From a virus, in the IMG/VR virus record IMGVR_UViG_3300037244_000010, positions 1 to 59,367 of that record: a stretch of DNA of 59,367 nucleotides. One strand, given 5' to 3'. Positions 512-59,190 of this stretch are shown here, one piece after another; the stretch's first letter is position 1, and each line of letters opens with the position of its first letter. The notes under the pieces are model-generated. The model ran no database searches, was not told the DNA's origin, and saw only the letters and a list, made by a program, of their open reading frames with translations. Both the position numbers and the translations under genes were made by a program.

Positions 512-729
512 TACTTCACCTTTCCTTTCGGTGCCCGCACGTAAGCATCGGGCAGTTGGATGAAACCTACACGCAAGGCCAACTCAGCCGTAAGCGCCTT
601 CTTACCCATCAGGACTTGAGAGATGTACTGGGGCGTGTATCCGAGTCCTGCTGCCACTTTGCTTTGGTTGGACTTTGCAATGAGGTCACGAAGGGCCTGC
701 ATCACGTCGTCTTTGTCGTATTTCCTCAT
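511..729 (-). CDS. Small helix-turn-helix DNA-binding protein
   Basis: The 72-residue product has one recognisable domain. Residues ~21-48 (SKVAAGLGYTPQYISQVLMG) read as an XRE/Cro-type helix-turn-helix, with the TPQYISQVL recognition helix and the GKKALTAELALRVGF tail usual for Cro/CI N-termini. There is no C-terminal oligomerisation or cleavage domain, so it resembles Cro or a short regulator rather than a full CI. The stop overlaps the GTG of the repeat protein. It is the only Cro-like candidate for the operator-like sites in this window, though that link is inference. A 46-bp gap separates it from the gene upstream. Confidence 0.8.
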   Translation of the reverse strand: MRKYDKDDVMQALRDLIAKSNQSKVAAGLGYTPQYISQVLMGKKALTAELALRVGFIQLPDAYVRAPKGKVK

Positions 730-775
730 AGCCGCAACTGTAACCGAACGGTTGTGAGCGTGTCAAGCGGAAAGT

Positions 776-1042
776 TTACCGCGTTGCCGTACTCAAATCC
801 CTAATTCTGCTAAATGGAATGAAAGCATCAGATTCAGAGGAGTGAATGCCGCGCTCAATCCAGTAGCATGTAGGGCATACCGGACCACCGCCCCATTCGC
901 CTTTGTAGTTGTCAGGTACGACTTCATCCTCATACCTTGCGACTCCAAAACTCGGCGCGGATGGAGGCTGTTCAGATGTGCGACCGCAAATGACGCACTC
1001 AATCACATATCGCTGCAAATCAATGACCGTTATGTTGCTCAT
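776..1042 (-). CDS. Small putative zinc-binding protein
   Basis: An 88-residue product with two Cys pairs, CVIC near residue 17 and CPTC near residue 56, spaced like a zinc ribbon. The ATG at 1042 overlaps the stop of the antirepressor gene (ATGA), which favours this frame over the competing frame at 793-1002. No enzymatic motif is visible. It is probably cotranscribed with the antirepressor and RNase H genes. Function unknown. Confidence 0.65.
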   Translation of the reverse strand: MSNITVIDLQRYVIECVICGRTSEQPPSAPSFGVARYEDEVVPDNYKGEWGGGPVCPTCYWIERGIHSSESDAFIPFSRIRDLSTATR

Positions 1043-1779
1043 TCGAAGAACTCCCCTTGCCCATCAGGACCCAAACCGGCGACTTTTGGAGTCAGCCACG
1101 TTATCCCGCGCCCGGTTACGTACACCTGGGCGTAGATGCTGTGTTCTTCGCCCCGCATGTATGGCCGCTCTTTGACTACAAACCGATTGGGAATGTACTG
1201 CTGCAATGGCATGTTGTGAACGTCGAAGATGTGCTCCTGGCGGAGGAAACGAAATAAGCGACTGCGACCTGTCCCGATGATCTTCGCAGCCTCGCTCATG
1301 GTATGGAGTCCCTCGGCGTCGTTGATGCGGTCCACGATCAAAGCCTTGGGCCGCAGGACTCCATTCTCCGCTTCGAGCAGTTGCTTTGCCTCTACGGTCG
1401 CCACCAGCTCTTTGAGGGCGTCCAAGTAGGTAGATGGAAGCGCTGGAGCGGACTTTGCCAGTGCGATATGCTCACACTCGATGAAATACTGCCTCGCCTG
1501 CTTTCCGCGCTCATTGCGCTCCACCATGGAAAGTTCTTTCGCCATATCGATCGAAATTGCGTATTCTTTCGACGGGCGCCCACCGGTGAGGTTTTCCCCG
1601 GAACTGGTGAAAACTAAAAAGTCTGAGTTTTCAACGAATTCGTACTGGTAGATGCGGGACTTGATCCATGTGGAGAAGTCTTTTCCGACCTGTAGAAAAT
1701 TGTGAAGTTCACGCGCGTCAACCGTTGGGATTGACTCATCCTTGAATTGTTTGTTTGATACTTTGATAAGTTCGTTCAC
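1039..1779 (-). CDS. Phage antirepressor, AntA/KilAC type
   Basis: Starting at GTG 1779, the product has about 246 residues. The N-terminal part (VDARELHNFLQVGKDFSTW onward, with ENSDFLVF and the SIDMAKELSMVERNERGK block) is the AntA/AntB antirepressor domain. The C-terminal part (MSEAAKIIGTGRSRLFRFLR and YVTGRGITWL) is the KilAC/ANT DNA-binding domain. Such proteins inactivate a phage repressor or compete for its operators. I chose GTG 1779 because GGAGG lies 7 bases upstream and GTGA overlaps the RNase H stop; an in-frame ATG at 1851 would overlap that gene by 76 bases and lacks such support. Confidence 0.88.
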   Translation of the reverse strand: MNELIKVSNKQFKDESIPTVDARELHNFLQVGKDFSTWIKSRIYQYEFVENSDFLVFTSSGENLTGGRPSKEYAISIDMAKELSMVERNERGKQARQYFIECEHIALAKSAPALPSTYLDALKELVATVEAKQLLEAENGVLRPKALIVDRINDAEGLHTMSEAAKIIGTGRSRLFRFLRQEHIFDVHNMPLQQYIPNRFVVKERPYMRGEEHSIYAQVYVTGRGITWLTPKVAGLGPDGQGEFFE

Positions 1780-2249
1780 TTCGATTCCTCCGGTTGAATC
1801 CTGAAGACCACGCCTTTGTCTTTGAGTACCTGCTTTGACAGGACATCGCAAATCTCGTTCTTATCCCGCGGCACCCAATCGAACTTGATGCGGTCCTCGT
1901 TGCCTTTGAGAAGCTGAATAGCCTCGTCATAGAAAGGCTTATAGAGGCCGCCTTTCATCTTCCACTTGCCCGCGTACCCCAGTCGCCGCGCCGCATCGGC
2001 CGACAGGTGGCAAATCACCAAACGCGAGTCGCCACGAATATGGATCTTGCCGGGATACTTCAACGCTTCCCGCAACGCCGCGCAAAATCCAGAGTATTCG
2101 GCCACATTGTTGCTCATCTTTGGGCCTACTCCGCAATAGCCGTTTCCCTCGTAGACGCTCACTCCGTCAACGAAAACAGCCGCTCCCCATGCTGCGTGAC
2201 CACCAGGATTCCTCGGTTCGCAGCAGCCATCAAACCACGCTTCTATCAT
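1776..2249 (-). CDS. Ribonuclease H-like protein
   Basis: A 157-residue RNase HI fold. It shows FDGCCEPRNPGG with Asp7, NNVAEY with Glu51, IRGDS with Asp74 and a late ICDVLSKQ Asp near residue 138, matching the DEDD metal ligands. It would cut RNA in RNA-DNA hybrids, for example replication primers. The ATG at 2249 starts directly before the first beta strand and has an AAGGAA element upstream; an upstream ATG at 2282 would add 11 unmatched residues. It is the first gene of the left-edge minus operon. Confidence 0.88.
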   Translation of the reverse strand: MIEAWFDGCCEPRNPGGHAAWGAAVFVDGVSVYEGNGYCGVGPKMSNNVAEYSGFCAALREALKYPGKIHIRGDSRLVICHLSADAARRLGYAGKWKMKGGLYKPFYDEAIQLLKGNEDRIKFDWVPRDKNEICDVLSKQVLKDKGVVFRIQPEESK

Positions 2250-3977: not shown

Positions 3978-4409
3978 ATGGCAAACCTCGTAAAAGGCCC
4001 TCCACCTCGTTCAAAACGCTCCCCTAAAACGCGCGCGAAGTTCCTTGAGGCTTTGAAGGCTACAGGGAACATCAGTAAATCGTGCAAGTTGAGCCGTCTA
4101 CCGAAGACATGCGCCTACGAGTGGCGCCGGCAGGATGAGGAGTTCCGGCAAGCGTGGGATGAAGCCCAAGTGGAGGGCGAGGCGGTGCTTGAGGATGAGG
4201 CGAAGCGCAGGGCCTATGAGGGCGTGAAGAAGCCGGTCTACCAGGGTGGGAAGCGCGTGGGCTATGTCCAGGAGTACAGTGATACGCTTTTGATCTTCCT
4301 GCTGAAGGGAACGAACAAGGCAAAGTTCGGTGACCGCACCACGCTGGCCGGCGACAAAGACAATCCAGTGCAGGTGAGCGTGCTCGATAGTATCCTCAAG
4401 GGAGAATGA
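3978..4409 (+). CDS. terS: Terminase small subunit
   Basis: The 143-residue product carries a homeodomain-like HTH near residues 17-50 (RAKFLEALKATGNISKSC followed by TCAYEWRRQDEEFRQAW). A later segment, DTLLIFLLKGTNKAKFGDR, is characteristic of many phage small terminases. It recognises the packaging site and recruits the large subunit. Start ATG 3978 follows a GTTTAATAAAC operator-like palindrome at 3965-3975; the ribosome binding site is weak. Its stop overlaps the large subunit start. An in-frame ATG at 3843 would add 45 residues that look like a shadow of the preceding gene. Confidence 0.85.
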   Translation: MANLVKGPPPRSKRSPKTRAKFLEALKATGNISKSCKLSRLPKTCAYEWRRQDEEFRQAWDEAQVEGEAVLEDEAKRRAYEGVKKPVYQGGKRVGYVQEYSDTLLIFLLKGTNKAKFGDRTTLAGDKDNPVQVSVLDSILKGE

Positions 4410-6136
4410 AGCCGCTCACTGTAGTACAGAAGGCCAAAATCCGTAGTACACTCGTGAACCCAGTCAAGTTTGTACTACATTGGCTGGGGTCCGACTTGTG
4501 GAGCGTGCAGAAAGAAATCGCCATGGCGCTCACAAAGCCCCAGGCGAAGGTCAACGTAAAAGCGTGCCATAGCAGCGGCAAAACTTTTGAAGCGGCGCAA
4601 CTCGCGCTTTGGTGGCTGGCCCGGTACGAGAACGCCATCGTGGTGACCACGGCACCCACGAAAAAGCAGGTCGAGGTCCTGATGTGGGGTGAAATCCACA
4701 AGGCCCTCGTCAAGAGCAAGTATCCCTTCCCATCTGCAAACCTCACCAAACTTGAGTTTGATAAGACCAAGTACCCGATGCGGTACGCGCTCGGATTCAC
4801 GACGACCGTCCAGCAACAGAACGAGGGTGTCAAGTTCCAAGGCTTCCACGCTGACCACGTGCTCGTCATCATCGACGAAGCTCCTGGCGTTGATCCGAAG
4901 ATCATCGAAGCGATCGAGGGCATCCGGGCTGGCGGCGATGTGCGCATCCTGAAGCTGGGCAACCCTACCATATCTTCTGGCGCCTTCTACGACGAGTTCC
5001 ACAGCAAGCGCGCCAGCATCCAACCGTTCACAATCTGCGCGTTCGACACACCCAACTTCAAAGGCATCAAGCTTTCATATGAGGCTCAGGACTCAGAAGG
5101 TGCCCCGATCACCGTAACGCTCGGTGATCCCGCCGGCCGCGACCTGATGGACCTGACAGAGGAAGAGCTTGACCAGAACGTGATGCCTTGGCTGACCACC
5201 AGGCGGTGGGTCAAAGAGCGGTTTGAGGAGTGGGGGCCGGGAGACTTCCGCTGGGATTCACGCGTGATGGGAGACTTCCCCTCTCAGAGTCCTGATGCCC
5301 TGCTGTCCCTGGCATGGCTCGAGCGCGCTCAACGGGACACGCGGACCTACGAGGGGAAGGTAGACATCGGCATCGACGTGGCGGGTCCTGGCGAGGATGA
5401 GACGGTGATGGTGGCGCGGTGCGGCTTCCAGATTCTCGAGATTGTCGGCTGGGGCAATCCAGATCCCCGCGGCGAACTGGTGAGCGCGCTCCGGAAGTAT
5501 GGAGACAGAATCGGGATCCTCAACGTTGACTCGGCCGGCATCGGATACTACTTGCACAAGCACCTCCAAGACCTTGGCTTTCCATCGAATGCTGTCAACG
5601 TGGGCGAGTCTCCGGCCGACAAAGAGCAGTTCGTGAACCTCAAAGCTGAGCTGTACTGGGGCCTGCGGATGCGCGCGAAGTCCGGAGACCTATCAGGACT
5701 CGACGACGAGACGACCATTTCCCAGCTTGCCAGCATCCGGTGGAAGCCGAACAGCCGGGGGCAAACAGAGATCGAGTCCAAGGAAGCGATGCGGAAGAGG
5801 GGCGTCAAGAGCCCGGACCGCGCCGAGGCGATCATGCTGGCATTTGCCAAGGTGGCAAAGAACGGCGCCGGGCTGCTGGAGTACTACCAGGGCATCACGG
5901 CGGTGCAAACTGGTGGAGAACAGGACTCAAACCCAAAGACTCCCGGCTTTAGACCTGCACCTACCGTCACTACGCCCGTCAAAGCACCGGCTCTGACCGC
6001 CTACAACCGCGCTATGGCTGCCCTTGCGCCCCAAGACCTTTGTGATCATTGCGGCAAACCTCTTGGCGATACCGTAGTTGAAGAGGGCATACGCCGGATG
6101 CACCCCGACTGCGCAAGGCCGTCGTGGGCGTCCTGA
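4406..6136 (+). CDS. terL: Terminase large subunit (ATPase-nuclease)
   Basis: A 576-residue DNA-packaging motor. The ATPase half has a Walker A variant KACHSSGKT (residues ~52-60) and Walker B VLVIIDEAP with Asp157-Glu158. The RNase H-like nuclease half has VDIGIDVAG (Asp near 320-324), NVDSAGIG (~373) and DRAEAIML (~470). The C-terminus carries an extra zinc-like module (CDHCGKPLG, then HPDC), which is not standard for the family. ATGA coupling to terS supports the start. The first 80 bases contain three TGTAGTACA-type sites. Confidence 0.97.
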   Translation: MKPLTVVQKAKIRSTLVNPVKFVLHWLGSDLWSVQKEIAMALTKPQAKVNVKACHSSGKTFEAAQLALWWLARYENAIVVTTAPTKKQVEVLMWGEIHKALVKSKYPFPSANLTKLEFDKTKYPMRYALGFTTTVQQQNEGVKFQGFHADHVLVIIDEAPGVDPKIIEAIEGIRAGGDVRILKLGNPTISSGAFYDEFHSKRASIQPFTICAFDTPNFKGIKLSYEAQDSEGAPITVTLGDPAGRDLMDLTEEELDQNVMPWLTTRRWVKERFEEWGPGDFRWDSRVMGDFPSQSPDALLSLAWLERAQRDTRTYEGKVDIGIDVAGPGEDETVMVARCGFQILEIVGWGNPDPRGELVSALRKYGDRIGILNVDSAGIGYYLHKHLQDLGFPSNAVNVGESPADKEQFVNLKAELYWGLRMRAKSGDLSGLDDETTISQLASIRWKPNSRGQTEIESKEAMRKRGVKSPDRAEAIMLAFAKVAKNGAGLLEYYQGITAVQTGGEQDSNPKTPGFRPAPTVTTPVKAPALTAYNRAMAALAPQDLCDHCGKPLGDTVVEEGIRRMHPDCARPSWAS

Positions 6137-9008: not shown

Positions 9009-9115
9009 CGGCCTACCTCAAGCGCAAAGGAAAAGAGGCGGCAGCAGGACTCACCGTCGAGAAACTGGCGAAGGCTGCGAAGAAGAAGCCAGAAGATCAG
9101 GACACGATAGACGTC

Positions 9116-41757: not shown

Positions 41758-41769
41758 AACGGGTACGCC

Positions 41770-41832
41770 ATGGATATACCGAGTCCCAATCCGGAATGGC
41801 CCCGCGATCTTCCGCAACCCGACGACCTATGA
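41770..41832 (+). CDS. Possible 20-residue peptide before the endolysin
   Basis: ATG 41770 opens 20 codons (PSPNPEWPRDLPQPDDL) ending at 41832. The peptide is Pro/Asp-rich. No good ribosome binding site, so support is weak. Confidence 0.2.
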   Translation: MDIPSPNPEWPRDLPQPDDL

Positions 41833-41839
41833 GGGCAAC

Positions 41840-42352: not shown

Positions 42353-42367
42353 AGCGAAGAGGGCAGC

Positions 42368-42613: not shown

Positions 42614-42632
42614 CGCCAAGGAGGCGCAAGAC

Positions 42633-43082: not shown

Positions 43083-43107
43083 TACGTTCACTGCACCACT
43101 TCATACG

Positions 43108-43142
43108 GCAGCCGGTCTCGCAAAGGACCGGCTGAATTTTCG
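43108..43142 (+). terminator. Hairpin after the lysis genes
   Basis: CAGCCGGTC and GACCGGCTG form a 9-bp stem with an 8-base loop, followed by AATTTT. Weak T-run; may attenuate rather than stop transcription into 43153. Confidence 0.6.
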
Positions 43143-43152
43143 GAGGTACACC

Positions 43153-43972: not shown

Positions 43973-44003
43973 TAAATAGTCAAAAGTGAAGCAAAATATG
44001 GTT

Positions 44004-44009
44004 TATAAT
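44004..44009 (+). promoter_or_regulatory. Perfect -10 box placed for a leaderless transcript
   Basis: TATAAT at 44004-44009 lies six bases before ATG 44016, so transcription would begin at or near the start codon. No -35 at proper spacing. A CTTATCAA site (44024-44031) lies immediately downstream. Confidence 0.4.
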
Positions 44010-44015
44010 GCAAAA

Positions 44016-47057: not shown

Positions 47058-49388
47058 GTCCTGCGGGGTGTTGGGTTCCTGTGCGTCCTCTGCGGCTTCC
47101 CCGGTGACGTAGGAATACGGATCATCATTCAACTCTTCTTCTGACACTTCCTCTTGCTCTGCGAACAGTCCGGCATTGCTTGCCAGCGCCCGGTCAAGGT
47201 TGCGGCACGCCTGATTGTAGTAAGACTTTTTCAGTTCACTTCCAAGGAACTTGCGGCCCATCTCCAGAGCAACAAACCCTTCAGAACCGATGCCAGCGAA
47301 CGGACTCCAAACCACATCGCCGGGATTCGTCCACAGTTTGACGGCGCGGCGGATAACTTCAAGCTGCAAAGGGCAGATGTGGCGTTCGTCGTTGTGTTCC
47401 CGAGCCGAACGATATTGCAGCGTATCCGATGGGTTTATGTCCATCCAAATCGGGCTGGCATACTGCTGCCACAGTTGGACGGGAAACTCCTCGGCGGTGT
47501 GTGCGCAGCGTTCGGGATTATCCCCCGGCTTCCTCATGGTCACAAGATAGTCAGGCACGCCCTGGCGGCTCATGGTAGAGTCCTTGCGAATCTGCTTGTG
47601 GAGTAGCCCGAGAGCCTTCGTACGCTGCATGGCGGTAACTGGGTCTTTCCAGATGCAGACCTCAGAATGGTAGATGAACCCCACTTCCTCAAATGCGCGG
47701 ATGATCTCGCCCCTGAAGTCCCGCAAGCCGATATGACCATCCCTGACCTTTGACGTAGGCAGGTTCATGCAATGAATGGAAACCAACCTGCCGGGCATCA
47801 ATGCGCGGTACTGCTCTTTGATGAGGAAACGGTAGTGGCGCCAGAACTCGTCATGGTCTTTGCTGTTTCCCAAGTCCCGCTCCGAATTGCTGTATGTGTA
47901 GAGTGAAGCGAACGGAGGCGAGTAGACGGAATAGTGGATGCTGTTGTCGGGAAGCTCCCGCGCAAGATCAACGCAGTCAGCAAGGTGCATTGTCCAGTTT
48001 TCGGAAGTCTTCACTTCGCGCTCATAGGTCGATTCGCTGCGCACGGTGCCTACCAGATTCATGCGTGTCAAGTCCTGCATGTTTTCCTGCATCTCTTCTG
48101 CCATCTGCTCTGACTCCCTTTCTTTACGCTTCAGATTTTCAAGTACGTTTCCCTCTGTCGATGCTGCGATGATGTGAACGTGGACGGGTTCATCCTGGCC
48201 AAACCTCCAGCATCGCCGGATTGCCTGAAAGAACTGCTCCCATGAATCGTTCACTCCGGCGAAGATCATGTGTGAGCAAACCTGATAGTTCACACCGAAA
48301 CCTAAGATGGAAGCCTTGGAAACCATGCGCTTGATCTTTCCTTGTGCAAACTCCAGTGACCGAGCAGCCTTCACTTCTGGCGTGTCCGATCCCGTCAATT
48401 CAACCCCATCGATACTTGCGGCTGCCATCTCGCTTTCCTTGTTCAAATTCGTCCAGACGAGCCAAGTTTCGTCAGGTTCCGCGTCAACGACTAGCTTGAC
48501 TTCCATGATCCGATCAATGACAGTGGACCTCCGCGCATTCAGCCTCTCGGAAAGTGTCTCAGCGGGCATCGCGAACAACATCCCTTCGCTCGGCGTGTCT
48601 ACGCCCACGATGTGTTCGTGGTAGACCAGTTCCGGCAGGATGAAAGGCCCATCGTCGTATCCCACATCTGAAGGCTTGCGGATGTTGACAGCCCAGGAGC
48701 AAACCCACTTCCAGAACTCCGCCCGAGCATGGCCCTTGAGCCTCCACTTCTGCGTCTCTCCGCCGTCGTGCGTGAAGAACATGGAAAGCATCTCAGTGGC
48801 CGTCATGACGCCCAAGAACTCCGCATGGTTGCCAAGCTCCATATGATCGTTCGGGGCAGGTGTGGCGGTCGCAGCGAGCCGGTACGGGGTATCCTTGAAC
48901 ACTTCAATGAGTGCGGAACGAGTCGCGCCATCGAAAGACTTCAGGATGCTGGATTCATCAAGCACTACTCCCGCGAAGTCGGAAGGGTCGAAGTTATCCA
49001 TGCGTTCATAGTTCGTGACGATGATGGATTCCGTGACAAGTTCTCCGTGATCGTAGAACTTTCCGTTGTGCGCGACATAATCCTTGCAGTACCTAACTTT
49101 GATGCCGAACTTCGCCCCCTCTGTGACCATCTGGTAAGCCACAGCCAGAGGTGCGAGAATCAGGACCGGCATACCGGTATGTTCTGACACGACGCGCGCC
49201 CACTCTTCCTCAATGAGCGTCTTCCCCATGCCGGTGCCAAGGAATGCGGCCGCCCGTCCAAGGCGAAGCGCCCATGAGCACACGTCGCGCTGATGCGGAA
49301 ACATGGATGGATTCAGCGGAGGAACGGTAGTCAAACCGGAGACAATCGGCGTGAACCGCTTCGCTTTCAGAAACTCTTCATAGTTCAT
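46869..49388 (-). CDS. Helicase-DNA methyltransferase fusion
   Basis: An 839-residue product from ATG 49388 with AGGAAAG upstream. The N-terminal half is a SNF2/DEAD-type helicase: GTGMGKT (~51-57), LDESS (~146), ATATPAPNDH, and RRCWRFGQDEPVHVH as motif VI. The C-terminal half is an adenine-N6/cytosine-N4 methyltransferase of the beta order: catalytic SPPF (~490) precedes the AdoMet motif SPFAGIGSEGF (~695) and GSELKKSYY. No nuclease domain, so it is a modification enzyme, perhaps against restriction. The last ~63 codons are read from the strand opposite the SNO gene end. The gene is almost free of CAGGACYC. Confidence 0.9.
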   Translation of the reverse strand: MNYEEFLKAKRFTPIVSGLTTVPPLNPSMFPHQRDVCSWALRLGRAAAFLGTGMGKTLIEEEWARVVSEHTGMPVLILAPLAVAYQMVTEGAKFGIKVRYCKDYVAHNGKFYDHGELVTESIIVTNYERMDNFDPSDFAGVVLDESSILKSFDGATRSALIEVFKDTPYRLAATATPAPNDHMELGNHAEFLGVMTATEMLSMFFTHDGGETQKWRLKGHARAEFWKWVCSWAVNIRKPSDVGYDDGPFILPELVYHEHIVGVDTPSEGMLFAMPAETLSERLNARRSTVIDRIMEVKLVVDAEPDETWLVWTNLNKESEMAAASIDGVELTGSDTPEVKAARSLEFAQGKIKRMVSKASILGFGVNYQVCSHMIFAGVNDSWEQFFQAIRRCWRFGQDEPVHVHIIAASTEGNVLENLKRKERESEQMAEEMQENMQDLTRMNLVGTVRSESTYEREVKTSENWTMHLADCVDLARELPDNSIHYSVYSPPFASLYTYSNSERDLGNSKDHDEFWRHYRFLIKEQYRALMPGRLVSIHCMNLPTSKVRDGHIGLRDFRGEIIRAFEEVGFIYHSEVCIWKDPVTAMQRTKALGLLHKQIRKDSTMSRQGVPDYLVTMRKPGDNPERCAHTAEEFPVQLWQQYASPIWMDINPSDTLQYRSAREHNDERHICPLQLEVIRRAVKLWTNPGDVVWSPFAGIGSEGFVALEMGRKFLGSELKKSYYNQACRNLDRALASNAGLFAEQEEVSEEELNDDPYSYVTGEAAEDAQEPNTPQDSIELLRGDVLLPIEPCWHQDSLLCAALMLCERDNSSLAPRLQLPISSQQIPGDDLGALPSVA

Positions 49389-49740
49389 GATCTTTCCTTT
49401 CGATGTGTGGTTTGCTTCCGTGCTGATGTTCAAACTGGTGACATCTCCAACAACTCCAGCGATGCTTCTGGCCTGTCTCTTCTGATTCAAACCATCCGAA
49501 CCGACTCTTAGATTTCAGGTGGCTCAGTTGCCCTTGGTGTTCCTCGTCGTCCAGTGCGTTGAGCGGCGCATATCCGAGGCAGTGAGGCCCGTTGTGAAGC
49601 TCACACATGCCGCCAGCGCGCAAATAGCAGTCCAACCTGGCCGATTGCTTCTCTTCGCTGGTCGGCTGCCCCTTGCGCATCCCTGGCCGTTTCTTGCGTA
49701 CTGGCGTGTAGCGTTTGAGTGGAGTCCTACGAGCAATCAT
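49378..49740 (-). CDS. HNH-type zinc nuclease-like protein
   Basis: A 120-residue product. The basic N-terminus (RRTPLKRYTPVRKKRPGMRK), CELHNGPHCLGY, the SHLKSKSRFGW block and SCWRCHQFEHQHGSKP fit small phage HNH/recombination endonucleases with HLKxRG and CxxHHxxxH signatures. GAGGCGG precedes the ATG, which overlaps the preceding stop. Confidence 0.68.
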   Translation of the reverse strand: MIARRTPLKRYTPVRKKRPGMRKGQPTSEEKQSARLDCYLRAGGMCELHNGPHCLGYAPLNALDDEEHQGQLSHLKSKSRFGWFESEETGQKHRWSCWRCHQFEHQHGSKPHIERKDHEL

Positions 49741-49937: not shown

Positions 49938-50031
49938 CTTTCCCTTTCCATACGTTCTTCTTGAGGTATTTGGTTATGCCAGCAAGTTGCTGCTGGATGA
50001 GGTTCAAATCAACATCAGGACGCTCACGCAT
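49888..50031 (-). CDS. Tiny hypothetical protein
   Basis: Forty-seven residues from ATG 50031 with AGGA upstream; overlaps the dnaB stop and the following gene. LNLIQQQLAGITKYLKKNVW suggests a helix. Weak support because of the 50-base overlap. Confidence 0.4.
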   Translation of the reverse strand: MRERPDVDLNLIQQQLAGITKYLKKNVWKGKDADQKKTEDAGERKSI

Positions 50032-51379
50032 AGTAGTCCTGCCCTTCATAGTCAATTTCCGCTTCTGCCTCAAAGCAAAGTTTGCGCGGATTAAACTCTC
50101 CGTCTACATTCCCAGGTGAACCGCCGCCACGGATGAGGGCTAGATTGATATTTGCCTTCCGCGTCATCTTCAGCGTTTCTTTGTCCTGATACCGATGCAA
50201 AAGGACCATGGCAAAGCAGTCTTGCAGCGGCTTCTTGCTCTCGCTTATGTCGCCCGGCTGCGGCCGCTTGTCGGCAAACTCTCTCGGTACTTCGCCAAGC
50301 TGGAAGAGGTTGAGCAGTGCTGCGTTCTTGTGCTGCTTGATCTTCTTGCGCAGCCGCTCCGAGTTCTCGACGTAGCGCTTTCGGATGTCCCGATCTCCGC
50401 CGGCTATCAGCCCGAAGTGATCCAAGACAAACAGCACATCACCATCCTTGCGCGCTTCCCGGTCGATGGCCCAGCATATTTGGTCACAGTCCATGTCGCC
50501 GTCATAGATGGTCAGCGGCCATTCGCCGATGGTGTAAAGCCCCTGCATCACGAGCGATTGCTGTTCTGGAGTCCTGAGTTCGGGCTTGACCACTACGATG
50601 TTCGGAAGATCCACAACGTGAGGCACGAGGTTCAATTCCACTTCCTCGTGGTCCATTTCCAGCGAGAACCACACGACGCGAGTCCCGCGTAGGCAGTTGT
50701 ATGCCGCTGACAGGACTCCCATGCCTGTCTTGCCCACCTTTGGCCGCGCTGCAACGATGGTGTACCTCCCCTTCCGGTATCCGCCGCCCATCTTTGCGTC
50801 AAGCCATGCGTTGCCGGTCGGGATGCCCCGCGGCGTCTTCTCCGTGTACTCCCGAACTACCCTGTCCATCAGTTCGACGATGTGGCTCTGAATCGGGGCC
50901 TTGTTTGACTGCATAGCAGGTTCGGCCAGTTTCTCGATCTTGCCGGCCATGTCCGCGGCAACTTCCAGCGCTGTTTCGCTTTGGTCCTGAGCCCGCTGGA
51001 TTGCATCGCTTGACAGGACTATCAAACTCCGGAGCATCGACTTGTCTTTTACGATCCGGATATACTCGTCAATCACCGGGCGCCGCGGCAAACCCTCCGT
51101 GAGCGCCGCCATGTAGGCAACGCCGCCCACCGCTTCAGTTTCATGAGTCCTGCTGAGTTCATTGGCCAGCGTCACAATATCGATTGCCGAGTTGGCATCT
51201 GCCAGTCGCTTCATTGCCGAGCCGATGCGCCGATGCGAGTCAAGGCTAAAGTCCGCAGGACGCAAACGAATTGCAATCTCTGGCCATGCGGCGTTATCAA
51301 GCAAGCACGCCCCAAGCAAGGTGCGCTCTGCGTCAACATTGCATGGCAGCATGGAATCAAGTGTGAGGTCCACATTCAC
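50024..51379 (-). CDS. dnaB: Replicative DNA helicase, DnaB-like
   Basis: A 451-residue product. The N-terminal domain (DAERTLLGACLLDNAAWPEI) and the RecA core with ARPKVGKTG Walker A (~212), WFSLEMDHEEV, FVLDHFGLIAGG Walker B and LNLFQLGEVPREF sensor are typical DnaB. It unwinds DNA at the phage fork. GTG 51379 was chosen: it overlaps the upstream stop (GTGA) with GAGG 7 bases upstream; TTG 51421 is possible but unsupported. A DnaG-type primase was not seen. Confidence 0.93.
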   Translation of the reverse strand: MNVDLTLDSMLPCNVDAERTLLGACLLDNAAWPEIAIRLRPADFSLDSHRRIGSAMKRLADANSAIDIVTLANELSRTHETEAVGGVAYMAALTEGLPRRPVIDEYIRIVKDKSMLRSLIVLSSDAIQRAQDQSETALEVAADMAGKIEKLAEPAMQSNKAPIQSHIVELMDRVVREYTEKTPRGIPTGNAWLDAKMGGGYRKGRYTIVAARPKVGKTGMGVLSAAYNCLRGTRVVWFSLEMDHEEVELNLVPHVVDLPNIVVVKPELRTPEQQSLVMQGLYTIGEWPLTIYDGDMDCDQICWAIDREARKDGDVLFVLDHFGLIAGGDRDIRKRYVENSERLRKKIKQHKNAALLNLFQLGEVPREFADKRPQPGDISESKKPLQDCFAMVLLHRYQDKETLKMTRKANINLALIRGGGSPGNVDGEFNPRKLCFEAEAEIDYEGQDYYA

Positions 51380-51897
51380 TCTGGCCTCGTCCCGTCCCGG
51401 TAGATTTTCGGAACCCCGCAAGCTGCAAGAAACATGGCCGGAGTGGGCATTCTCTTCATCGTTTCATCCTGGCTCAGGACTCGATAAGCCGTGTCCATGT
51501 CCTGATCTGTCCGATGGCCGGCGCGCTCCTCGTAGAGCAAAAGCAGTTCCTCGTCGACCGTCACGCCAAAGATGCGCGCTAGTTTCGCCACAATTCCCCT
51601 CAGATGCCTTTGCGGGTGCCGGATGGACCGGATGGCCACCAGAAGCGTACCGTAGTCAGGGCAGGCAGTTTCTCGCTCACGGCGGGGGCTCTCTGCGATC
51701 TTTTGGATGGTTGCAATCACATCCTCAAAGGGTTCCGTCAATAGTCCTGCCGCGAAAGTCTCCAGCGTCTTCGAGTCGTACTCCCCGTTCCTCCTGAGCG
51801 CCAGAACTCCCAGCGCCGCGATGATCTCTTCCTTTGGAGATAGCCTCTCGAACTGCGTCAACTGTCCGACTTGCTTTCGTGCCAATCTGCTTTCCAT
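51376..51897 (-). CDS. Replication-region protein upstream of dnaB
   Basis: A 173-residue helical product from ATG 51897 (GGGGGAAG upstream). It contains TQFERLSPKEEIIAALGVLA and FGVTVDEELLLLYEERAGHR. Position directly before dnaB fits a helicase loader or accessory factor; no motif proves it. It overlaps the upstream gene by 173 bases in another frame, which is unusual. Confidence 0.6.
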   Translation of the reverse strand: MESRLARKQVGQLTQFERLSPKEEIIAALGVLALRRNGEYDSKTLETFAAGLLTEPFEDVIATIQKIAESPRRERETACPDYGTLLVAIRSIRHPQRHLRGIVAKLARIFGVTVDEELLLLYEERAGHRTDQDMDTAYRVLSQDETMKRMPTPAMFLAACGVPKIYRDGTRPE

Positions 51898-52590: not shown

Positions 52591-53283
52591 TCAATCCGTG
52601 TTGTGGTTCAGGTGGTAGGCGGCCAGTTCGCGGGGTCCTGATGTTGCCGGCTTTCCGCTCGATGGCGGAGTCTCGAACGGAATGTCGTCTTGGGCATTCG
52701 GGTCAAGCTCTGGTTCGCCCTCGCCCTCGCCCTCTTCAGGACTCTCGGCATCTTCCGTATCGTCGTCCACCAGTTCCGTCTCATCGGCCGTTGCGAACGC
52801 CAGCTTCGATTCCGAGTTGGAATACACCGTTTCGATGTAGAAGTCTTTGTGCAAGTGGATCGCTGCCCATTCCATCATCTCTTTGGTGAACGGGACATAG
52901 ATTGCCAGATGCAGGTTGACTTCCTTCTTCTCGCCTTCTCCCACCGTTGCCAGATACAGCTTCATGAGCTTGGCGCCGGTTGTCGATACCCAGTGGTCTT
53001 TGCTGGTGTCGGTTGAGAAGATGTCCAGCGTCATGCCTTCGATCTCAACATTGATCGCCGAACGCTCCGTCTTAGAGTCGTTCTTCGCCATGAGGCCGAA
53101 CGGTTCGCCGATCTCGTCGTTCATGCCGATGAGAGACTGGTTGAGCAACGGGAGTCGCATGTCGAGCTTAATCGTTGAGATCCCGGCACGATTGCAATGC
53201 TGAATCCACTGGATGAGGAAGCATTTGCGACGATGGCCTTCAAAGAACGTTGCCAGTTTCGTGGGTTGCACTTTTGCTGCCAT
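52591..53283 (-). CDS. Hypothetical recombination/replication protein with SSB-like tip motif
   Basis: A 230-residue product from ATG 53283 with AGGAGAGG upstream. An alpha/beta N-terminal domain (~1-160, LNQSLIGMNDEIGEPFGLMA) is followed by a highly acidic tail. The tail contains NAQDDIPFETPP; DDIPF is the C-terminal tip of bacterial SSB that recruits repair proteins, though here it is about 27 residues from the end. I infer an SSB-like or SSB-mimicking protein. Confidence 0.55.
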   Translation of the reverse strand: MAAKVQPTKLATFFEGHRRKCFLIQWIQHCNRAGISTIKLDMRLPLLNQSLIGMNDEIGEPFGLMAKNDSKTERSAINVEIEGMTLDIFSTDTSKDHWVSTTGAKLMKLYLATVGEGEKKEVNLHLAIYVPFTKEMMEWAAIHLHKDFYIETVYSNSESKLAFATADETELVDDDTEDAESPEEGEGEGEPELDPNAQDDIPFETPPSSGKPATSGPRELAAYHLNHNTD

Positions 53284-53300: not shown

Positions 53301-53831
53301 TTAAAACTCTGGAAGTTCGGCGAAGTATATAGCCTCTTGCTTCGCGGGTTTCTTGACGCCCTTCGCATCCTTTCGAGGAAAATTACGAAGCATATTCCCG
53401 ATGCCGCCGTTCCTCATCACGCCTTCCAATCGCTGCCGGAACGGGGACCCAGGGCCTTGCATGAACTTGACGATCTCCACATACTCATCGTGGGTAAAGT
53501 CGCCTTTACTGCCGTTGCACTTGCGGCAGATGACTTGCTTGTTACTGAGTTCAGGACCACCATCCCGCCGTTTTGGAGTCTTGTGGTCTAACTCCATGCT
53601 GAGGATGTCAATCGGCGCGCCACAATAGGGGCAAAGGATCACCCCGAGTTGAATCTGTGTCCAGAGCCACTTCCCGAATTGTGCTTGCGTGTAGGGCAGG
53701 ATTTCGTCCAGGGCAACATCAAGCACGAATCCTGCCTTAGTGGCTTGCTTTTCGAGTTCCCTGCGCCACCACTTACGCTCATCGTTGTAGAGTTGCGCTA
53801 CACGCTTTTGGTACTGCTTCATGTCGATCAT
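53301..53831 (-). CDS. HNH endonuclease
   Basis: A 176-residue product from ATG 53831 (ATGA overlap). CPYCGAPIDILSMELDHKTP, the GGPELSNKQVICRKCNGSKG block and FTHDEY match the zinc-stabilised HNH nuclease domain (His-Asn-and CNxxKG ending). Located between the SSB-like and ASCH genes; could be a recombination nuclease or a selfish element. Confidence 0.82.
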   Translation of the reverse strand: MIDMKQYQKRVAQLYNDERKWWRRELEKQATKAGFVLDVALDEILPYTQAQFGKWLWTQIQLGVILCPYCGAPIDILSMELDHKTPKRRDGGPELSNKQVICRKCNGSKGDFTHDEYVEIVKFMQGPGSPFRQRLEGVMRNGGIGNMLRNFPRKDAKGVKKPAKQEAIYFAELPEF

Positions 53832-54232
53832 AGGGTCCACAATGTGCTTTCGTTGACTTCGAAGAATCCAAGTGCGCCCTTGAATGGGATAGGACGCCCA
53901 AACTCCATGGGATCGTCTAGTACGAATCCATGCTTGCCTTGAAAGAATGCGCTCGGGTGCTTTGTCACACAATCGGTGATGACCACTGATCCTACAAGGC
54001 ACCCTCCGGCGGCTTTCATCACGTCCAGGTCAACATCTGGAAGCTTGATTCCGTCATCTGCGGCCATGTCGTAAATGTCATCCAGATCGCAGTTGATCTC
54101 GTCTTTCTTCCAGAACTTGCTGGCATGGAGAAAGACGCGACCGCGGACGTTGGTATACCAATCCCGGTTCTCAATTGGCTTACCGTGGAGGATGGCCCAC
54201 CACCACGGGGCGCGCACACTTAGAGCTTTCAT
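53828..54232 (-). CDS. ASCH-domain protein
   Basis: A 134-residue product. MKALSVRAPWWWAILHGKPI with ENRDWYTNVRGRVFLHASKF and GALGFFEV is the ASCH fold, which binds modified RNA or bases. It overlaps both neighbours by four bases, so it is coexpressed with the SbcC-like ATPase. Some ASCH proteins act on modified cytidine. Confidence 0.85.
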   Translation of the reverse strand: MKALSVRAPWWWAILHGKPIENRDWYTNVRGRVFLHASKFWKKDEINCDLDDIYDMAADDGIKLPDVDLDVMKAAGGCLVGSVVITDCVTKHPSAFFQGKHGFVLDDPMEFGRPIPFKGALGFFEVNESTLWTL

Positions 54233-56151
54233 GACAGTCTCTCAACCTTCCCTTTCTCCACCAGGTAGAACCCGACTCCCTCTTGCTTCGGAGCCTCACG
54301 CCGCTTGTCAGCGACAAAGATGAAAGCCTTCTCCAACAGTCCGGTATCGAGTAGATGCTTGACCCCGGCGAAGAGCTTGCCGCGGTGAGCATCGATCAGA
54401 ATATCGGCCTTGTCAATGAGGACCATCTTGATCTTGGAATAGACGGCGATAGCACACTGGAGAGCCACCAGGAACCGGAACAACTCGGACCCGCTCAGCT
54501 CCTTGACAGGCAGCGTCTTCGGTGTAGTCTCCGGCGTCACCACGTCGAAACTGTAGGGCTCAAAGGAGAGCGTTGCTGAGTATCCCCACCAATTCAGGAC
54601 ACGATTCACAGACTCATTGAACCCGCCGATGTGCTTCTGTAGAAGAGTGGCCTTGATGCCTTTGGGGCCAAAGTGCTCGCACAGTGTTTCCAGTTCGTCC
54701 ACATCGTTCTTTTTGTCCTGCCATTGCTTTGTAGCCGTCTCGATCTGCTTCAGCGTTGACTCGTACTGGACTGCCGGCGCCAGCCGCGCTTCCCACTCGC
54801 TAATTTCGGTATTGACGGCATCGATTGCTGTCGTATCGACCGGCTCGGACTCGGAAGCCTTGGCGGTTTCCAAAGCGGCCTTGGCATCTCCGCTTTGCTT
54901 TTCCAGTGTGGCGATGCGTTCGGTGGTTTCGGTGACCTTCTTGACCTGCTCCAGCTTCGCCGCGACAGCCTTCTCCTGCTTCTGTATGGCATCCTCGGCC
55001 GCCTTGATGTCGCCAAGCGCTTTCTGCTGCTGGATGAGTTGCGCGCGGCTCTCAGTAAGTTCCAGTTCGTGCCCTTTGTGCTCGGCAATCTTAGCGGCGA
55101 TGAACTCGGGCTTGATGACTTGCTTGCATGTCGGGCAGAGGCAATCGTCCCGAAGACCTTCGTAAATCTCCTGGGCATCCTTCATATCCTGAATCTCGCC
55201 GGCAAAGGCATCGATGGCCGTCTGGAGGGTGGCGAAGGCTGAGCGCTGGCCGGCAATCTGCTTGAGACTGGCAAGCGCCGCGCCATCCACCATCTCGGCC
55301 TCAATCTCGCCACGCTTGGCAATGGCCGCCGTGCGCTCGGAGAATGCCGCAGTGAGCTTTTCCGCTACCTGCTCCAGCTCCCGTTCAAGCCGTCCAGTTT
55401 GCGCTGTGCCGGAGCGCTTGACCTTCTTCGATTCCTGCGAAGCTTTCTCGCGCAAGGCCAGTAGCTTCTGCTGTACCAACTCAGCAGGATACTGAGGCTG
55501 TACCGGCTTCTGCGGGATGTAGATGGCCCCCAGCGCCGCTTTGGCTTGCGTCCTGGCGTTGTAGACGCCGCTGCTCTTGTCACCGAACACCTTGTCAATG
55601 ACGGCAACAGGACTCGCATTCCAGTCGATGACCTTGCCGAGGTGCTTCTCGACCAATGCAACCATCTTCGCGTCGAAGTCGTGATGCGTGGGAAGTACCA
55701 GCGATGCGAGGATAGCGCGCTGATCCGTGCCGGGACGCGTGAAGTATTCCGAGTCCAGGACACAGGAGAACCGCTCTTCACTGCGCTGGAGGTACTGCTC
55801 GAATCCGGCTGCGATTTTCTGACCGTCGCCACCTTGGCCCGCAATCACAACGGAGTCGCGTCCCCTCTTGCCGGGTCCGTAGGTGGTCCTGATTTGGATG
55901 GCTCCCTGCGCCGTTTCCAGCCCAGCGGTGATGATGGCTTTGTCTTCCCCGAGACGGATCTTGTCACGGAAGCCGGAGCCCTTTCCGTCGATGCCGTCGC
56001 ATATCTTGGCAAAGCTGAGTTGGATGGCCTGCGAGAGCTTCGTCTTGCCCTGTGCAAGATCGCCGCGGATAACGTTGAGTGGTTGGTCAAAGTTGATGGT
56101 TTGGTCCACGTATGGGCCGAAGTCCTCAAGATGGATGGTGCTGAGTTTCAT
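54229..56151 (-). CDS. SbcC/Rad50-like SMC ATPase
   Basis: A 640-residue product. Walker A IRGDLAQGKT (~29-37), two coiled-coil arms around a zinc-hook DCLCPTCKQVIKPE (~340) and ELSGSELFRFLVALQ signature (~555). Walker B reads KMVLIDKADIL: the catalytic Glu after Asp is Lys, so ATP hydrolysis may be slow or absent. SbcC relatives tether DNA ends with a partner nuclease; the nuclease partner could be the gene at 56362 or the HNH protein. Confidence 0.88.
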   Translation of the reverse strand: MKLSTIHLEDFGPYVDQTINFDQPLNVIRGDLAQGKTKLSQAIQLSFAKICDGIDGKGSGFRDKIRLGEDKAIITAGLETAQGAIQIRTTYGPGKRGRDSVVIAGQGGDGQKIAAGFEQYLQRSEERFSCVLDSEYFTRPGTDQRAILASLVLPTHHDFDAKMVALVEKHLGKVIDWNASPVAVIDKVFGDKSSGVYNARTQAKAALGAIYIPQKPVQPQYPAELVQQKLLALREKASQESKKVKRSGTAQTGRLERELEQVAEKLTAAFSERTAAIAKRGEIEAEMVDGAALASLKQIAGQRSAFATLQTAIDAFAGEIQDMKDAQEIYEGLRDDCLCPTCKQVIKPEFIAAKIAEHKGHELELTESRAQLIQQQKALGDIKAAEDAIQKQEKAVAAKLEQVKKVTETTERIATLEKQSGDAKAALETAKASESEPVDTTAIDAVNTEISEWEARLAPAVQYESTLKQIETATKQWQDKKNDVDELETLCEHFGPKGIKATLLQKHIGGFNESVNRVLNWWGYSATLSFEPYSFDVVTPETTPKTLPVKELSGSELFRFLVALQCAIAVYSKIKMVLIDKADILIDAHRGKLFAGVKHLLDTGLLEKAFIFVADKRREAPKQEGVGFYLVEKGKVERLS

Positions 56152-56361: not shown

Positions 56362-57666
56362 TTAAAACTCCATCGGTTCATCACCGGAAGCGTCCCAAGG
56401 TTTCTTTTCTTCCACTCCGTCATCGACTTCCGCTTCTTTGGTAATCCCGTACTCTACGGCTGTCTTGACGGTTACTAGGTCTTTGATCCTGTTGTGGATG
56501 ATCTCGCGCTTGTTCGCTTTGAGATAGCTCTTGAGTTGCGACCAACCGATGCGGAGGTTGCAGAACCACGGCTGGCTTCCCTTGCGCGGGATGAGGTCTT
56601 TCGGATTTGCGTTGGCCCAGTCCATCAAGGCGTCAAGTATGGGCATTGAGAATCCACCCTTGCCGTCCTGAACGAACAGCGGGGCGATGGTTTCAGTGGA
56701 TTCCTTCGGTCCGTACTTGTAGACCTTTCCGTTGGCATCCTGGGAGTAGATGTCTTCCCCTGTTGCGTCCACCATCTCCTTCAGAATCCTATCGGCCGAT
56801 GCGATGGTCTGCTGTGCTGCCAGCTTCACACTTAGCCAGTCATCTGGCTTGCGGTTGAGGTATGGATTCAGCGGCATCGTTGGGCACTTGTAGGTCAGTG
56901 GGTCCAACATGCAAGGGCAGCAGGTGCATTGCTTGCCGCCGTGGGTCCTGAGCGGTTCGAGATTGGCCACTTTCTCGTGGATGGCAACCTGGCGCGCACG
57001 AACCCGGCGAACCTCGTCCATCAGTGCCGGCACATCGGAGCGGAAGTACTTCTGAGTCTTGGTGCAATTCTGATAGCGGAGGAAGTTCAAACTGAAGTCA
57101 ACCTCATTCACTTCAGGCAGGTGCATCAGGAACGCGAGAGAGTAATCCTTTCCTTGGAAAGTGTCGGCAGGGAACGGACGAGGATGCGTCTTGCTGTCTT
57201 TGATAGCCCCACTCTTGCCGCCGGGAAAGAGGTAAATCTCGTCAATGATTCCGCAGTGCTCGGGCTCTTCTCCGCTTCCCTCAATGCCCCAGATAGGATT
57301 GATCTCGACTCGTTTCCCGTCGTGGTCATAACTCCATGTGGGGCGAAAGTTTATGTCTAGTCCCCAGTGGACCTCAGCACCAGCGAAGTTCTGCCAGTCA
57401 ATCGTCCAGCTCTGACCGTTGTTTTCAACGATGGATGCAACTTCATCCGTAGCCGATGATGTGAGACTTTCCAAGTAGGAGAAGTCAGCAGGAATACGCT
57501 TCTTCGAGCAGTATTCAGCATATGCGGCCCGGATGGCGTGAACGTCCGTACCGCGGTCCCCTGGCTCAGTATCAGGGAACCGCACGCCGTCAATGTGTAC
57601 GAGCCGATAACCCGACTCGCACCCCATCGACTCATAAATGCTTTGACGCAGGGCAGGGACGTTCAT
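56362..57666 (-). CDS. PD-(D/E)XK nuclease, Cas4/RecB-like
   Basis: A 434-residue product from ATG 57666 with GGAGGG upstream. DTEPGDRGTDVHAIRAAYAE, HCGIIDEIYLFPGG, GAIKDSKTHPRP (~154) and FQGKDYSLAFLM correspond to the PD-(D/E)XK motifs of the PDDEXK_1/Cas4 group. A Cys cluster at ~237-253 (CTCCPCMLDPLTYKCP) may hold an iron-sulfur cluster as in Cas4 and AddB. It would resect DNA for annealing by the 58000 protein. Confidence 0.82.
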   Translation of the reverse strand: MNVPALRQSIYESMGCESGYRLVHIDGVRFPDTEPGDRGTDVHAIRAAYAEYCSKKRIPADFSYLESLTSSATDEVASIVENNGQSWTIDWQNFAGAEVHWGLDINFRPTWSYDHDGKRVEINPIWGIEGSGEEPEHCGIIDEIYLFPGGKSGAIKDSKTHPRPFPADTFQGKDYSLAFLMHLPEVNEVDFSLNFLRYQNCTKTQKYFRSDVPALMDEVRRVRARQVAIHEKVANLEPLRTHGGKQCTCCPCMLDPLTYKCPTMPLNPYLNRKPDDWLSVKLAAQQTIASADRILKEMVDATGEDIYSQDANGKVYKYGPKESTETIAPLFVQDGKGGFSMPILDALMDWANANPKDLIPRKGSQPWFCNLRIGWSQLKSYLKANKREIIHNRIKDLVTVKTAVEYGITKEAEVDDGVEEKKPWDASGDEPMEF

Positions 57667-57667
57667 G

Positions 57668-57871
57668 CTATCCCTCCACTGTGACGTTGGCCGCTTGCAA
57701 ACCGTTCGGACCTTGCTCGACTTCAAACGAGACCTTCTGGCCTTCCTTGAGTGTCCTGTATCCCTTCATCTGGATAGCGGTGTGGTGAACGAAAAGATCC
57801 TTCTCTCCGTCCTCGCGGGATATAAATCCGTATCCCTTTTGTGCTGAGAACCAGCAAACCGTTCCTTGCAT
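57668..57871 (-). CDS. Cold-shock domain protein
   Basis: A 67-residue CspA-type OB fold with RNP1 KGYGFIS and RNP2 LFVHHTAI. Binds single-stranded RNA/DNA. ATG 57871 follows AAGGAA by a few bases. The gene ends two bases before the nuclease ATG. Its leader has a long inverted repeat (see regulatory entry). Confidence 0.94.
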
Positions 57872-57999
57872 GACGTTCCTTTCTGTGTCCTGAAGTTATG
57901 GTGCGCGGGCCGGGAGCGTACACCCTTGCGGATATGGAGCCCAGTATGCACCCGCGCACCTTCCGGCCAGCTTACCCATTGGGGATGGCCGAAACTTGA
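57872..57999 (-). promoter_or_regulatory. Structured leader of the cold-shock gene
   Basis: GGTGCGCGGG (57900-57909) and CCCGCGCACC (57951-57960) form a perfect 10-bp stem on either strand, enclosing 41 bases. It lies just upstream of the cold-shock ribosome binding site. Could be a temperature- or protein-responsive leader, or a processing site between the two genes. Confidence 0.6.
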
Positions 58000-59190
58000 T
58001 TACCAGTTTTCGAATGACGGAGCGGCCGGTGCGCTCTTCTTCGTCTCGACTGTCTTCTCATGCTCAGCAGGACCCGACTGCTTTGCGTCCTGATGTGGCT
58101 CCGGTTCGGCCGACTCGCGGTGAGCGGTCTTCTGCTCCGGCTTGGGATCTTCCTTCTTCGGAGGATCTTCACGCTTGCTGCCGTCGTTGCGCTTCTTGGC
58201 AACTTCACCCTCAAGCCACTCGATCAGTTCCTTGGGGCGGCCGGCATACTTCGCCTTCTTCGTCCTGGCCTGTGCGGGGGTGTATTCGAGTTCCTTCACC
58301 AGCACTTCGATGCGCTCTGCCGATCCGTCGTCTTTGCCTTCACCCTTACTGGCCGCTATCTCTGCCCAAGTGGTGTACTTCTCGCTGATTCCACCGTACA
58401 GGCTTCGCAGTTCATCAAGCTCCGCAGGACTCAAAGCGTTTGTGTGTCCGATGTAGTCGTTCAGTTGAACTGCTGATACTCCAATAGAAGCGAAGGCATC
58501 GAAGATTTGAGTCTTGGCCGCGCCGGGGTTCTCTGCGTCTTTGGCCGCCGCCGTCTCACGAATCTTCGCCTTGCACTCTTCCACCAGCCAGCCGTCAATG
58601 CACTGCATGATGACGTTGCGCCTGGCTTTGGAGTTGAGAGCGTTGCGCTTCACCTGAAGATCATCGTCAGTTGGAACGATAGTGAATGTGGTCTTGCCCT
58701 GGCTGTTCTCGCGACGCCCCAGCACCACGTCAGAGTCTTTCGCGTAACTCCGTTCGATGCGCTTCGGGACAATAACGATCTCGCTGCCGCCGTCGTTGTT
58801 CTGGTAGTCAGTCGCTTCTACCTGATAAATCTGCTGCGTCTCATCCTCGCCGAGGGGAGTAACTTCCACGAAAATGTGACCGTAGCAGCGCTTGGCCATC
58901 TCGGCAAACCTGATCGTCACGCCCTCGATCTTGTTGCCGCCGCGCGGGACTCGATAGATTGCCACGCTCGATCCGTTCTTGCTCATATCGGGAGCGCAGA
59001 AAGACGGCCGGCTGCATTCACGCAGCATCTTCTGGCGAACCACTTCCAGGTCACGCGGTTGACGCAGCGCCATGATGTAGCGGGATTCGATCTTGGCCTT
59101 TTCCCGCTGCTGCACCATAGAGATGCTTTGCTCTTGATACTCAGCCAGTTTGTCAGTGTCCTGAACTTGCAGTGCATTCTGATTGTCCAC
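58000..59190 (-). CDS. Phage recombination-associated protein (annealing-protein-like)
   Basis: A 396-residue product from GTG 59190, overlapping the repeat protein stop. SRYIMALRQPRDLEVVRQKM, RECSRPSFCAPD, PRGGNKIEGVTIRFAEMAKR and SKARRNVIMQCIDGW are family-typical of a widespread phage protein often next to PD-(D/E)XK nucleases; its exact biochemical role is unsettled. The C-terminal ~90 residues are Lys/Glu/Pro-rich and probably disordered. Likely partner of the 56362 nuclease. Confidence 0.78.
   Translation of the reverse strand: MDNQNALQVQDTDKLAEYQEQSISMVQQREKAKIESRYIMALRQPRDLEVVRQKMLRECSRPSFCAPDMSKNGSSVAIYRVPRGGNKIEGVTIRFAEMAKRCYGHIFVEVTPLGEDETQQIYQVEATDYQNNDGGSEIVIVPKRIERSYAKDSDVVLGRRENSQGKTTFTIVPTDDDLQVKRNALNSKARRNVIMQCIDGWLVEECKAKIRETAAAKDAENPGAAKTQIFDAFASIGVSAVQLNDYIGHTNALSPAELDELRSLYGGISEKYTTWAEIAASKGEGKDDGSAERIEVLVKELEYTPAQARTKKAKYAGRPKELIEWLEGEVAKKRNDGSKREDPPKKEDPKPEQKTAHRESAEPEPHQDAKQSGPAEHEKTVETKKSAPAAPSFENW

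Follow-up and report, generated by a model that had tools for sequence, protein, structure and literature searches.

A dense, polar octamer in a contractile-tailed phage accompanies a replication-recombination module and may be a Chi-like signal of the phage's own

In the cases known, Chi-like signals belong to the host, and phages mimic, evade or neutralise them; to our knowledge, each Chi is overrepresented in the genome of the host it serves. Other repeated words include the DNA uptake sequences of Haemophilus and Neisseria and the cyanobacterial HIP1, which occur about once per kb and have graded variants, the FtsK-orienting polar sequences (KOPS), octamers spread over a replicon, and the mycobacteriophage stoperators, asymmetric sites of about 13 bp that recur in these phages. 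In Rec- lambdoid phages, host Chi has an observed-to-expected ratio (O/E) of 3-5 at 0.2/kb, and in E. coli itself the O/E is 2.3 (PMC3784561). Phage tf bears 14 nicks at a 9-base consensus, all on one strand (PMC3517423). Here we describe the octamer CAGGACYC in the IMG/VR virus record IMGVR_UViG_3300037244_000010 (positions 1-59,367; this whole stretch of 59,367 nt is called the window), which derives from a contractile-tailed phage with terminase, portal, protease, sheath, tape-measure and baseplate genes. We suggest, at a probability of roughly 0.55, that CAGGACYC is a genome-wide, polar, Chi-like cis-signal and that its reader is the replication-recombination module of the phage itself (43998-59190). 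All gene calls were made in this analysis, and IMG/VR records may be fragments.

An exact count gives 76 copies, 50 on the plus and 26 on the minus strand, at a mean gap of 770 bp (1.28/kb, or 1,280 per Mb) and with an even coverage of the genome that shows no clustering. The expectation of an order-2 Markov model is 4.1, an excess of about 19-fold; a first-pass annotation, made from the letters, had put the number at about 76 (some 50 forward and 26 inverted) and the excess at twenty-fold, and both figures are borne out. By the same model, CAGGACTC (44 against 2.2 expected) is the most enriched of all octamers and CAGGACCC (32 against 1.9) the third, while the second, ATCAGGAC, overlaps the motif. 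The annotation had proposed to abandon the claim if a codon-preserving null gave comparable counts or if many unrelated octamers were alike enriched. In 300 shuffles that hold amino acids and codon usage fixed and leave non-coding copies in place, about 15 copies are found in total (maximum 21), 8 of them being the fixed non-coding ones; within coding sequence, 68 copies are seen where 6.2 are expected, and the next unrelated octamer lies far below (12 against about 2). We define occupancy as the share of positions carrying the octamer where the encoded amino acids permit it by synonymous choice. In the window, it is 68 of 151 positions (45%), compared with 0-4% for control octamers, 11% for CGGGACYC and 22% for CAGGACAC. 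Codon usage and amino-acid repeats were rejected as the cause of the excess on the basis of this null and of the occupancy. Filling of almost half of the protein-permitted positions is unusually strong, and if 4% is taken as neutral, the log odds give a scaled selection (or drive) of roughly 3 per site. The earlier view that selection acts on the DNA and not on the protein is supported, with drive as the other possible force.

The consensus is graded and can be written DCAGGACYCR. By position, the preferences in the octamer are C, A (>>G), G, G, A, C, T or C (>A>G) and C (>A>G>T), and the weaker relatives are CAGGACAC, TCAGGAC and CGGGACYC, the last of which had been recognised as such from the start (19 copies against about 4-5 expected). 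Copies had been placed in every codon phase and in non-coding DNA; five of the six phase/strand combinations and non-coding DNA are indeed used, but the sixth, which proteins almost never permit, is empty. T, A or G is favoured over C before the octamer, and the statement that C never precedes the forward copies holds for all 50; C stands before 2 of the 26 inverted ones. As a standalone word, CAGGACTC appeared in the searched literature in one unrelated paper only.

The octamer is a conserved property of a clade of closely related peat-bog phages. Contigs whose capsid protein is 96-100% identical have a density of 5-19 per 10 kb, apart from one 4-kb fragment with a lower value, further clade contigs reached via terminase, helicase or ATPase have up to 22 per 10 kb, and the near-complete clade mates G001, G002 and G003 contain 70, 77 and 61 copies, respectively. 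Occupancy in the clade genomes is 38-46%. Between these genomes, 61-78% of copies are kept, against 35-50% for control octamers, and losses are mostly single-base steps; amino-acid identity to outgroups is not lowered at the copies. At 61-68% capsid identity, structural relatives are down to the level of chance, with 1-7 copies per genome, and no octamer comparable to CAGGACYC was found in these structural outgroups.

Related phages had been named as the place to look for the same octamer, and it recurs not only in the close clade mates but also in a second lineage. This lineage (G785, G786, G787 and G788; 64-70 kb) was found by a scan with an alignment of the module nuclease (56362-57666), and over their whole length its members have no terminase, portal, capsid, sheath, tape-measure or baseplate gene in common with the window. 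What they do have in common with it are the Strawberry-notch (Sno)-type and DnaB-type helicases, a small protein, an HNH protein, an SbcC-like ATPase, the nuclease and a putative annealing protein, the shared module proteins being 25-79% identical. Their octamer counts are 33, 45, 72 and 79 against 3, 3, 6 and 3 for the reversed control, and occupancy is 21-39%. Genomes with a diverged module at 22-35% identity (G004, G009, G789 and G790) or with the helicases only (G792) have 2-7 copies and 1-5% occupancy, and G005, with a diverged module or none, likewise falls within 1-5%. Only 10 of 40 second-lineage copies within shared genes stand at the window's positions and most copies lie in unrelated genes, from which we conclude that the motif arose anew in this lineage. 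As structural kin that lack the module subtype lack the motif, and the subtype in another virion has it, the motif tracks the module, a strong correlation across two structurally unrelated lineages. G789 and G790 share an excess of CGAGCTC/GAGCTC, which could stem from codon effects or mark a cognate word of a different kind.

The base favoured before the octamer is not the same in both lineages. Relative to codon-shuffled genomes, TCAGGAC is enriched about 3-4-fold in the clade and 1-2-fold in the second lineage, where ACAGGAC and GCAGGAC reach about 2-4-fold; CCAGGAC is at or under expectation in both. The clade thus prefers T and A, then G, and the second lineage A and G and hardly T; G785 uses CAGGACTC and has no CAGGACCC. 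Such lineage-specific preferences would be explained more easily by a diverging phage-encoded reader than by one common host enzyme.

Forward copies had been noted to be twice as frequent as inverted ones within the plus-transcribed region. The skew is real, but much of it is explained by the protein-permitted positions of the window, which number 88 forward and 63 inverted. When four clade genomes are each divided by gene strand, forward positions are filled more often than inverted ones in every one of the eight strata, minus-strand genes included. With genomes oriented by module, a residual forward preference that is independent of gene strand is seen in the clade (Mantel-Haenszel odds ratio (OR) 2.06, z 4.0) and in the second lineage (OR 1.73, z 3.0), the z values being optimistic since genomes in one lineage are kin and not independent. 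Because the preference is also present in minus-strand genes, the polarity follows the genome and not transcription, and we rejected an octamer orientation linked to transcription. A short asymmetric sequence whose use depends on orientation is what is expected of Chi, and among the meanings offered in the first-pass annotation, a Chi-like site fits best.

The module proteins (Table 1) give this reading its substance. The nuclease has the invariant residues D142, D157, K159, Q171 and Y175 (D...DxK...QxxxY) together with C16, C247, C250 and C261, the motif and four-cysteine iron-sulphur signature of the RecB/AddB/Cas4 type. Its predicted fold, of moderate model confidence, matches Cas4-like ACE1 and the nuclease domains of AddA, AdnA and RecB; the PDDEXK_1 profile stays under the cut-off (E 0.013). 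The fold matches of the putative annealing protein are many, weak and viral, with RecT, Rad52 and Erf proteins concordant, the best at E ~1e-3 and none in the PDB. Searches for the nuclease in cultured phages and plasmids, and for the SbcC-like ATPase in cultured phages, returned none. In at least two records of the second lineage, the Sno-type helicase is inside a very long open frame; the frames in G785 (30756-43631) and G788 (24593-35875) have 3,760-4,290 codons. Two proteins were rejected as the sole reader. Homologues of the Sno-type helicase at 71% (L220/L223) and 47% (G792) all occur without the motif, and a 39% homologue of the annealing protein is found in Acinetobacter phage Ab11510-phi, which has 2 copies in 44.8 kb.

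An end-processing nuclease, an SMC-like ATPase, a helicase and an annealing protein, combined with a dense polar octamer, invite comparison with the Chi control of AddAB/RecBCD. In the favoured reading, the phage nuclease complex would process double-strand ends that stem from replication, packaging cuts or host attack; an octamer met in the right orientation would attenuate degradation, and the strand would then be handed to the annealing protein. Densely marked phage DNA would be recombined and preserved, and unmarked host DNA would be degradable. We more tentatively propose, at rather less than even odds, that the transferable module brings its own Chi, with nuclease, SMC-like ATPase and annealing protein recognising CAGGACYC as self; any phage backbone that gained the module would then be expected to evolve the octamer genome-wide.

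Several observations weigh against a signal read by the module. That any module protein contacts the motif directly, and which one would do so, is conjecture. The nuclease has no RecB-type helicase domain, and the Sno-type protein, to which the helicase role would fall, is also found where the motif is absent. The assignment of the annealing protein is weak, with a best fold E of ~1e-3, and the co-occurrence rests on two motif-bearing lineages in which the several records are kin. Finally, 105 recombination breakpoints in the clade are no nearer to copies than random, which lends no support to local recombination hotspots at the octamers; Chi effects can span kilobases.

A signal of host origin has to be judged against the likely hosts. 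For the Dps-like ferritin (gene at 2911-3408), the 18 best matches in the genome collection are Acidobacteria metagenome-assembled genomes, almost without exception Acidobacteriaceae and in many cases from peat. Distant homologues of the capsid protein are likewise present in Acidobacteriota genomes; these matches point to Acidobacteria (Acidobacteriaceae) as the likely hosts. Counts of CAGGACYC are near the reversed-pattern control, and typically slightly below it, in 34 genomes drawn mainly from the candidate host group, in 398 Acidobacteriaceae and in 149 Acidobacteriota, and not one of the 398 or 149 is enriched. The densest of these genomes have about 190-235 copies per Mb, values that their controls equal or exceed, against the 1,280 per Mb of the phage. 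A Chi is marked by an excess in the chromosome of its host, chiefly on the leading strand, and an uptake or polarity sequence by an excess in a bacterial genome; neither is seen in these Acidobacteria, the presumed hosts. The first-pass annotation had suggested a search of candidate hosts; given its outcome, a host polarity mark, a host uptake site and a host Chi are all unlikely.

The last of these would make CAGGACYC the Chi of a host AddAB-type enzyme, with both lineages infecting related peat Acidobacteria and saturating their genomes to survive the host nuclease, in the manner of lambdoid phages that are Rec- or have no inhibitor. The host-family genomes are compatible with this: RecC is found in 0 of 41, PDDEXK_1 proteins occur in all, many of them as neighbours of AddB/AddA size, and AddAB-like proteins are present. 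Lambdoid phages enrich the Chi of their host at O/E 3-5 (PMC3784561), and the Dps protein, with its best match in peat Acidobacteriaceae, is 78% identical in two second-lineage records, so hosts may be shared. Against it, a Chi absent as an enriched word from its own host would depart from every case we know, E. coli with its O/E of 2.3 included, and the densest of the 398 and 149 genomes have equally high controls. The two lineages also differ in preceding-base preference, and an Acidobacteriota cluster with portal, protease and capsid kin at 32-37% (G589 contig 7, ~174-181 kb; L482, L483), likely a prophage, is without the octamer. We consider a host Chi unlikely. CRISPR spacers in the 398 Acidobacteriaceae were compared with 20 kb of the window and nothing spacer-like was found.

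A second alternative would see in the octamer the site of a phage-specified nickase or DNA modification (nicks like those of T5 and tf, or methylation of CAGGAC) by a module enzyme such as the HNH protein. The 14 nicks of tf at a 9-base consensus (PMC3517423) set a precedent and the HNH protein is part of the shared module, but the tf sites are few and on one strand, whereas here both strands and 45% of possible positions are used, and HNH is only 25% identical in the two second-lineage records with the strongest enrichment of that lineage. Methyltransferases fare no better, since their types are exchanged in the clade while the motif is retained: the enzyme is fused to a helicase in G000 and G002, split in G001 (30482-32988) and replaced by an unrelated DPPY-type in G003 (8475-9452). 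This locus was recently exchanged and includes an octamer-free stretch (47063-49490). The window methyltransferase has no homologue in the second lineage, and no methyltransferase is conserved in all motif bearers. We therefore rejected the methyltransferase as the reader, the modification target of a phage methyltransferase that had been put forward is unlikely, and the nick or modification site as a whole appears improbable.

It seems just as improbable that a DNA-organising, replication-initiation or segregation protein of the module binds the octamer genome-wide in a role other than end processing. Even coverage, the graded consensus and the tolerance of single changes would suit such a site, but polarity is unexpected for a passive one, and no dedicated sequence-specific DNA-binding fold was found among the shared genes. 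A packaging signal, also suggested at first, is unlikely, as it would travel with terminase or packaging genes and neither the terminase nor any head or tail gene is common to the two motif-bearing lineages. That mutational or gene-conversion bias (a drive like uptake-sequence accumulation or repair of the very-short-patch type) piles up the octamer without benefit to the phage is very doubtful. Single-step variants are common, and a recombination machine preferring marked ends would spread marks without advantage. On the other side, the enrichment extends to every core position at once, neighbours at one mismatch do not point to a source in a single direction, and copies once present are conserved. 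Being a statement on the force and not on the reader, this alternative is compatible with a module-read signal.

Table 1. Coordinates of the octamer and of selected genes in the window (percentages are protein identities)
Feature	Position	Strand	Remarks
CAGGACYC copies	643..58432	both (50 +, 26 -)	first site 643, last 58425-58432
Terminase large subunit	4406..6136	+	no counterpart in second lineage
Near-perfect inverted octamer pair	15775..15796	.	inside head protease gene; from sequence
Major capsid protein	16924..18516	+	defines structural family; 0/3 possible octamer positions filled
Variable tail-fibre-like gene	34022..38374	+	0/15 possible octamer positions filled
Sno-type helicase	43998..47057	+	Helicase_C_4, AAA_34; 54-58% in second lineage; absent from structural relatives
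Helicase-methyltransferase fusion	46869..49490	-	swapped for other methyltransferases in clade
DnaB-type replicative helicase	50024..51421	-	swapped within clade, 52-57%
Small replication-region protein	51376..51897	-	72-78% in 2/4 second-lineage records
Acidic-tailed module protein	52591..53283	-	38-51% in second lineage
HNH protein of module	53301..53831	-	25-56% in second lineage
SbcC/Rad50-like ATPase	54229..56151	-	45-47% in second lineage; 26-28% in motif-free relatives
RecB/Cas4-type PD-(D/E)XK nuclease	56362..57666	-	52-56% in second lineage; 25-34% in motif-free relatives
Putative single-strand annealing protein	58000..59190	-	43-56% in second lineage; 22-23% in motif-free relatives

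Other features of these phages are recorded here. The minus-strand block of the window holds the DnaB-type helicase, the HNH protein, the SbcC-like ATPase, an exonuclease-like protein and others. A 33-base tandem repeat is found at both ends of the window (1-330 and 59260-59367) and codes for a repeat protein of the EAYQKA type; the contig break probably falls inside it, so that the map closes. A circular or permuted map follows from the repeat at both ends and from clade mates that begin at other map positions. A second repeated word, TTATCAA, occurs at 31 places between 1763 and 52358 (3.5 expected), on both strands, in and between genes; it is also present in G004 and G009, structural relatives without CAGGACYC, and may serve the wider phage family as a regulator site. 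The palindromic hexamers CGATCG, GTCGAC, GACGTC, GGATCC and GGGCCC are strongly depleted in the window relative to the codon-preserving null, a pattern resembling restriction avoidance. Among relatives, a 5.6-kb contig (L292; portal 88%, terminase fragment 75%) has 14 CAGGAC, an enrichment, of which only 3 are followed by YC. Among cultured phages, a related capsid protein (37%) was found in just two, the Brevundimonas phages Polewnik and Strzyga (ON529863, ON529867), and a search for the capsid protein in the genome contigs collection gave none. Other viral lineages with paired octamers were set aside because the enriched ones inspected, bar one clade contig, were local tandem repeats. Two loci of the second lineage encode a phage GroEL (L470:7166-8896 and L459:7262-8980).

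If a Chi-like signal is indeed read by the module, a self-recognition code would be a portable phage trait that follows its module across unrelated virions, and discrimination of self from non-self by sequence marks would be possible without dependence on the host. The pairing of module and motif, with its lineage-specific preceding base, would also offer a natural series for the evolution of recognition.

Among the known systems, the stoperators are intergenic repressor sites aligned with transcription, unlike CAGGACYC, whose copies lie for the most part within genes and do not follow transcription. Uptake sequences and HIP1 match it in density and graded variants but are features of bacterial genomes, whereas CAGGACYC is at chance in the likely hosts; HIP1 is, in addition, palindromic. 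KOPS are likewise polar octamers, but host chromosomes are not enriched in CAGGACYC, the orientation bias is weak (OR ~2) and no ter-centred switch is seen. The nick sites of T5, phiKMV and tf are also short, asymmetric, phage-specified and spread across a phage genome, but they are few and on one strand (14 in tf), in contrast to 76 copies on both. The closest resemblance is to the Chi of RecBCD/AddAB (E. coli GCTGGTGG and equivalents): asymmetric, octamer-sized, dense, present on either strand but with one orientation favoured, in almost every codon phase and associated with a RecB-family nuclease. The excess of about 19-fold at 1.28/kb is well beyond the O/E of 3-5 at 0.2/kb of Chi in Rec- lambdoids (PMC3784561), and, unlike Chi, CAGGACYC is not enriched in the likely hosts and tracks a module that the phage itself encodes.

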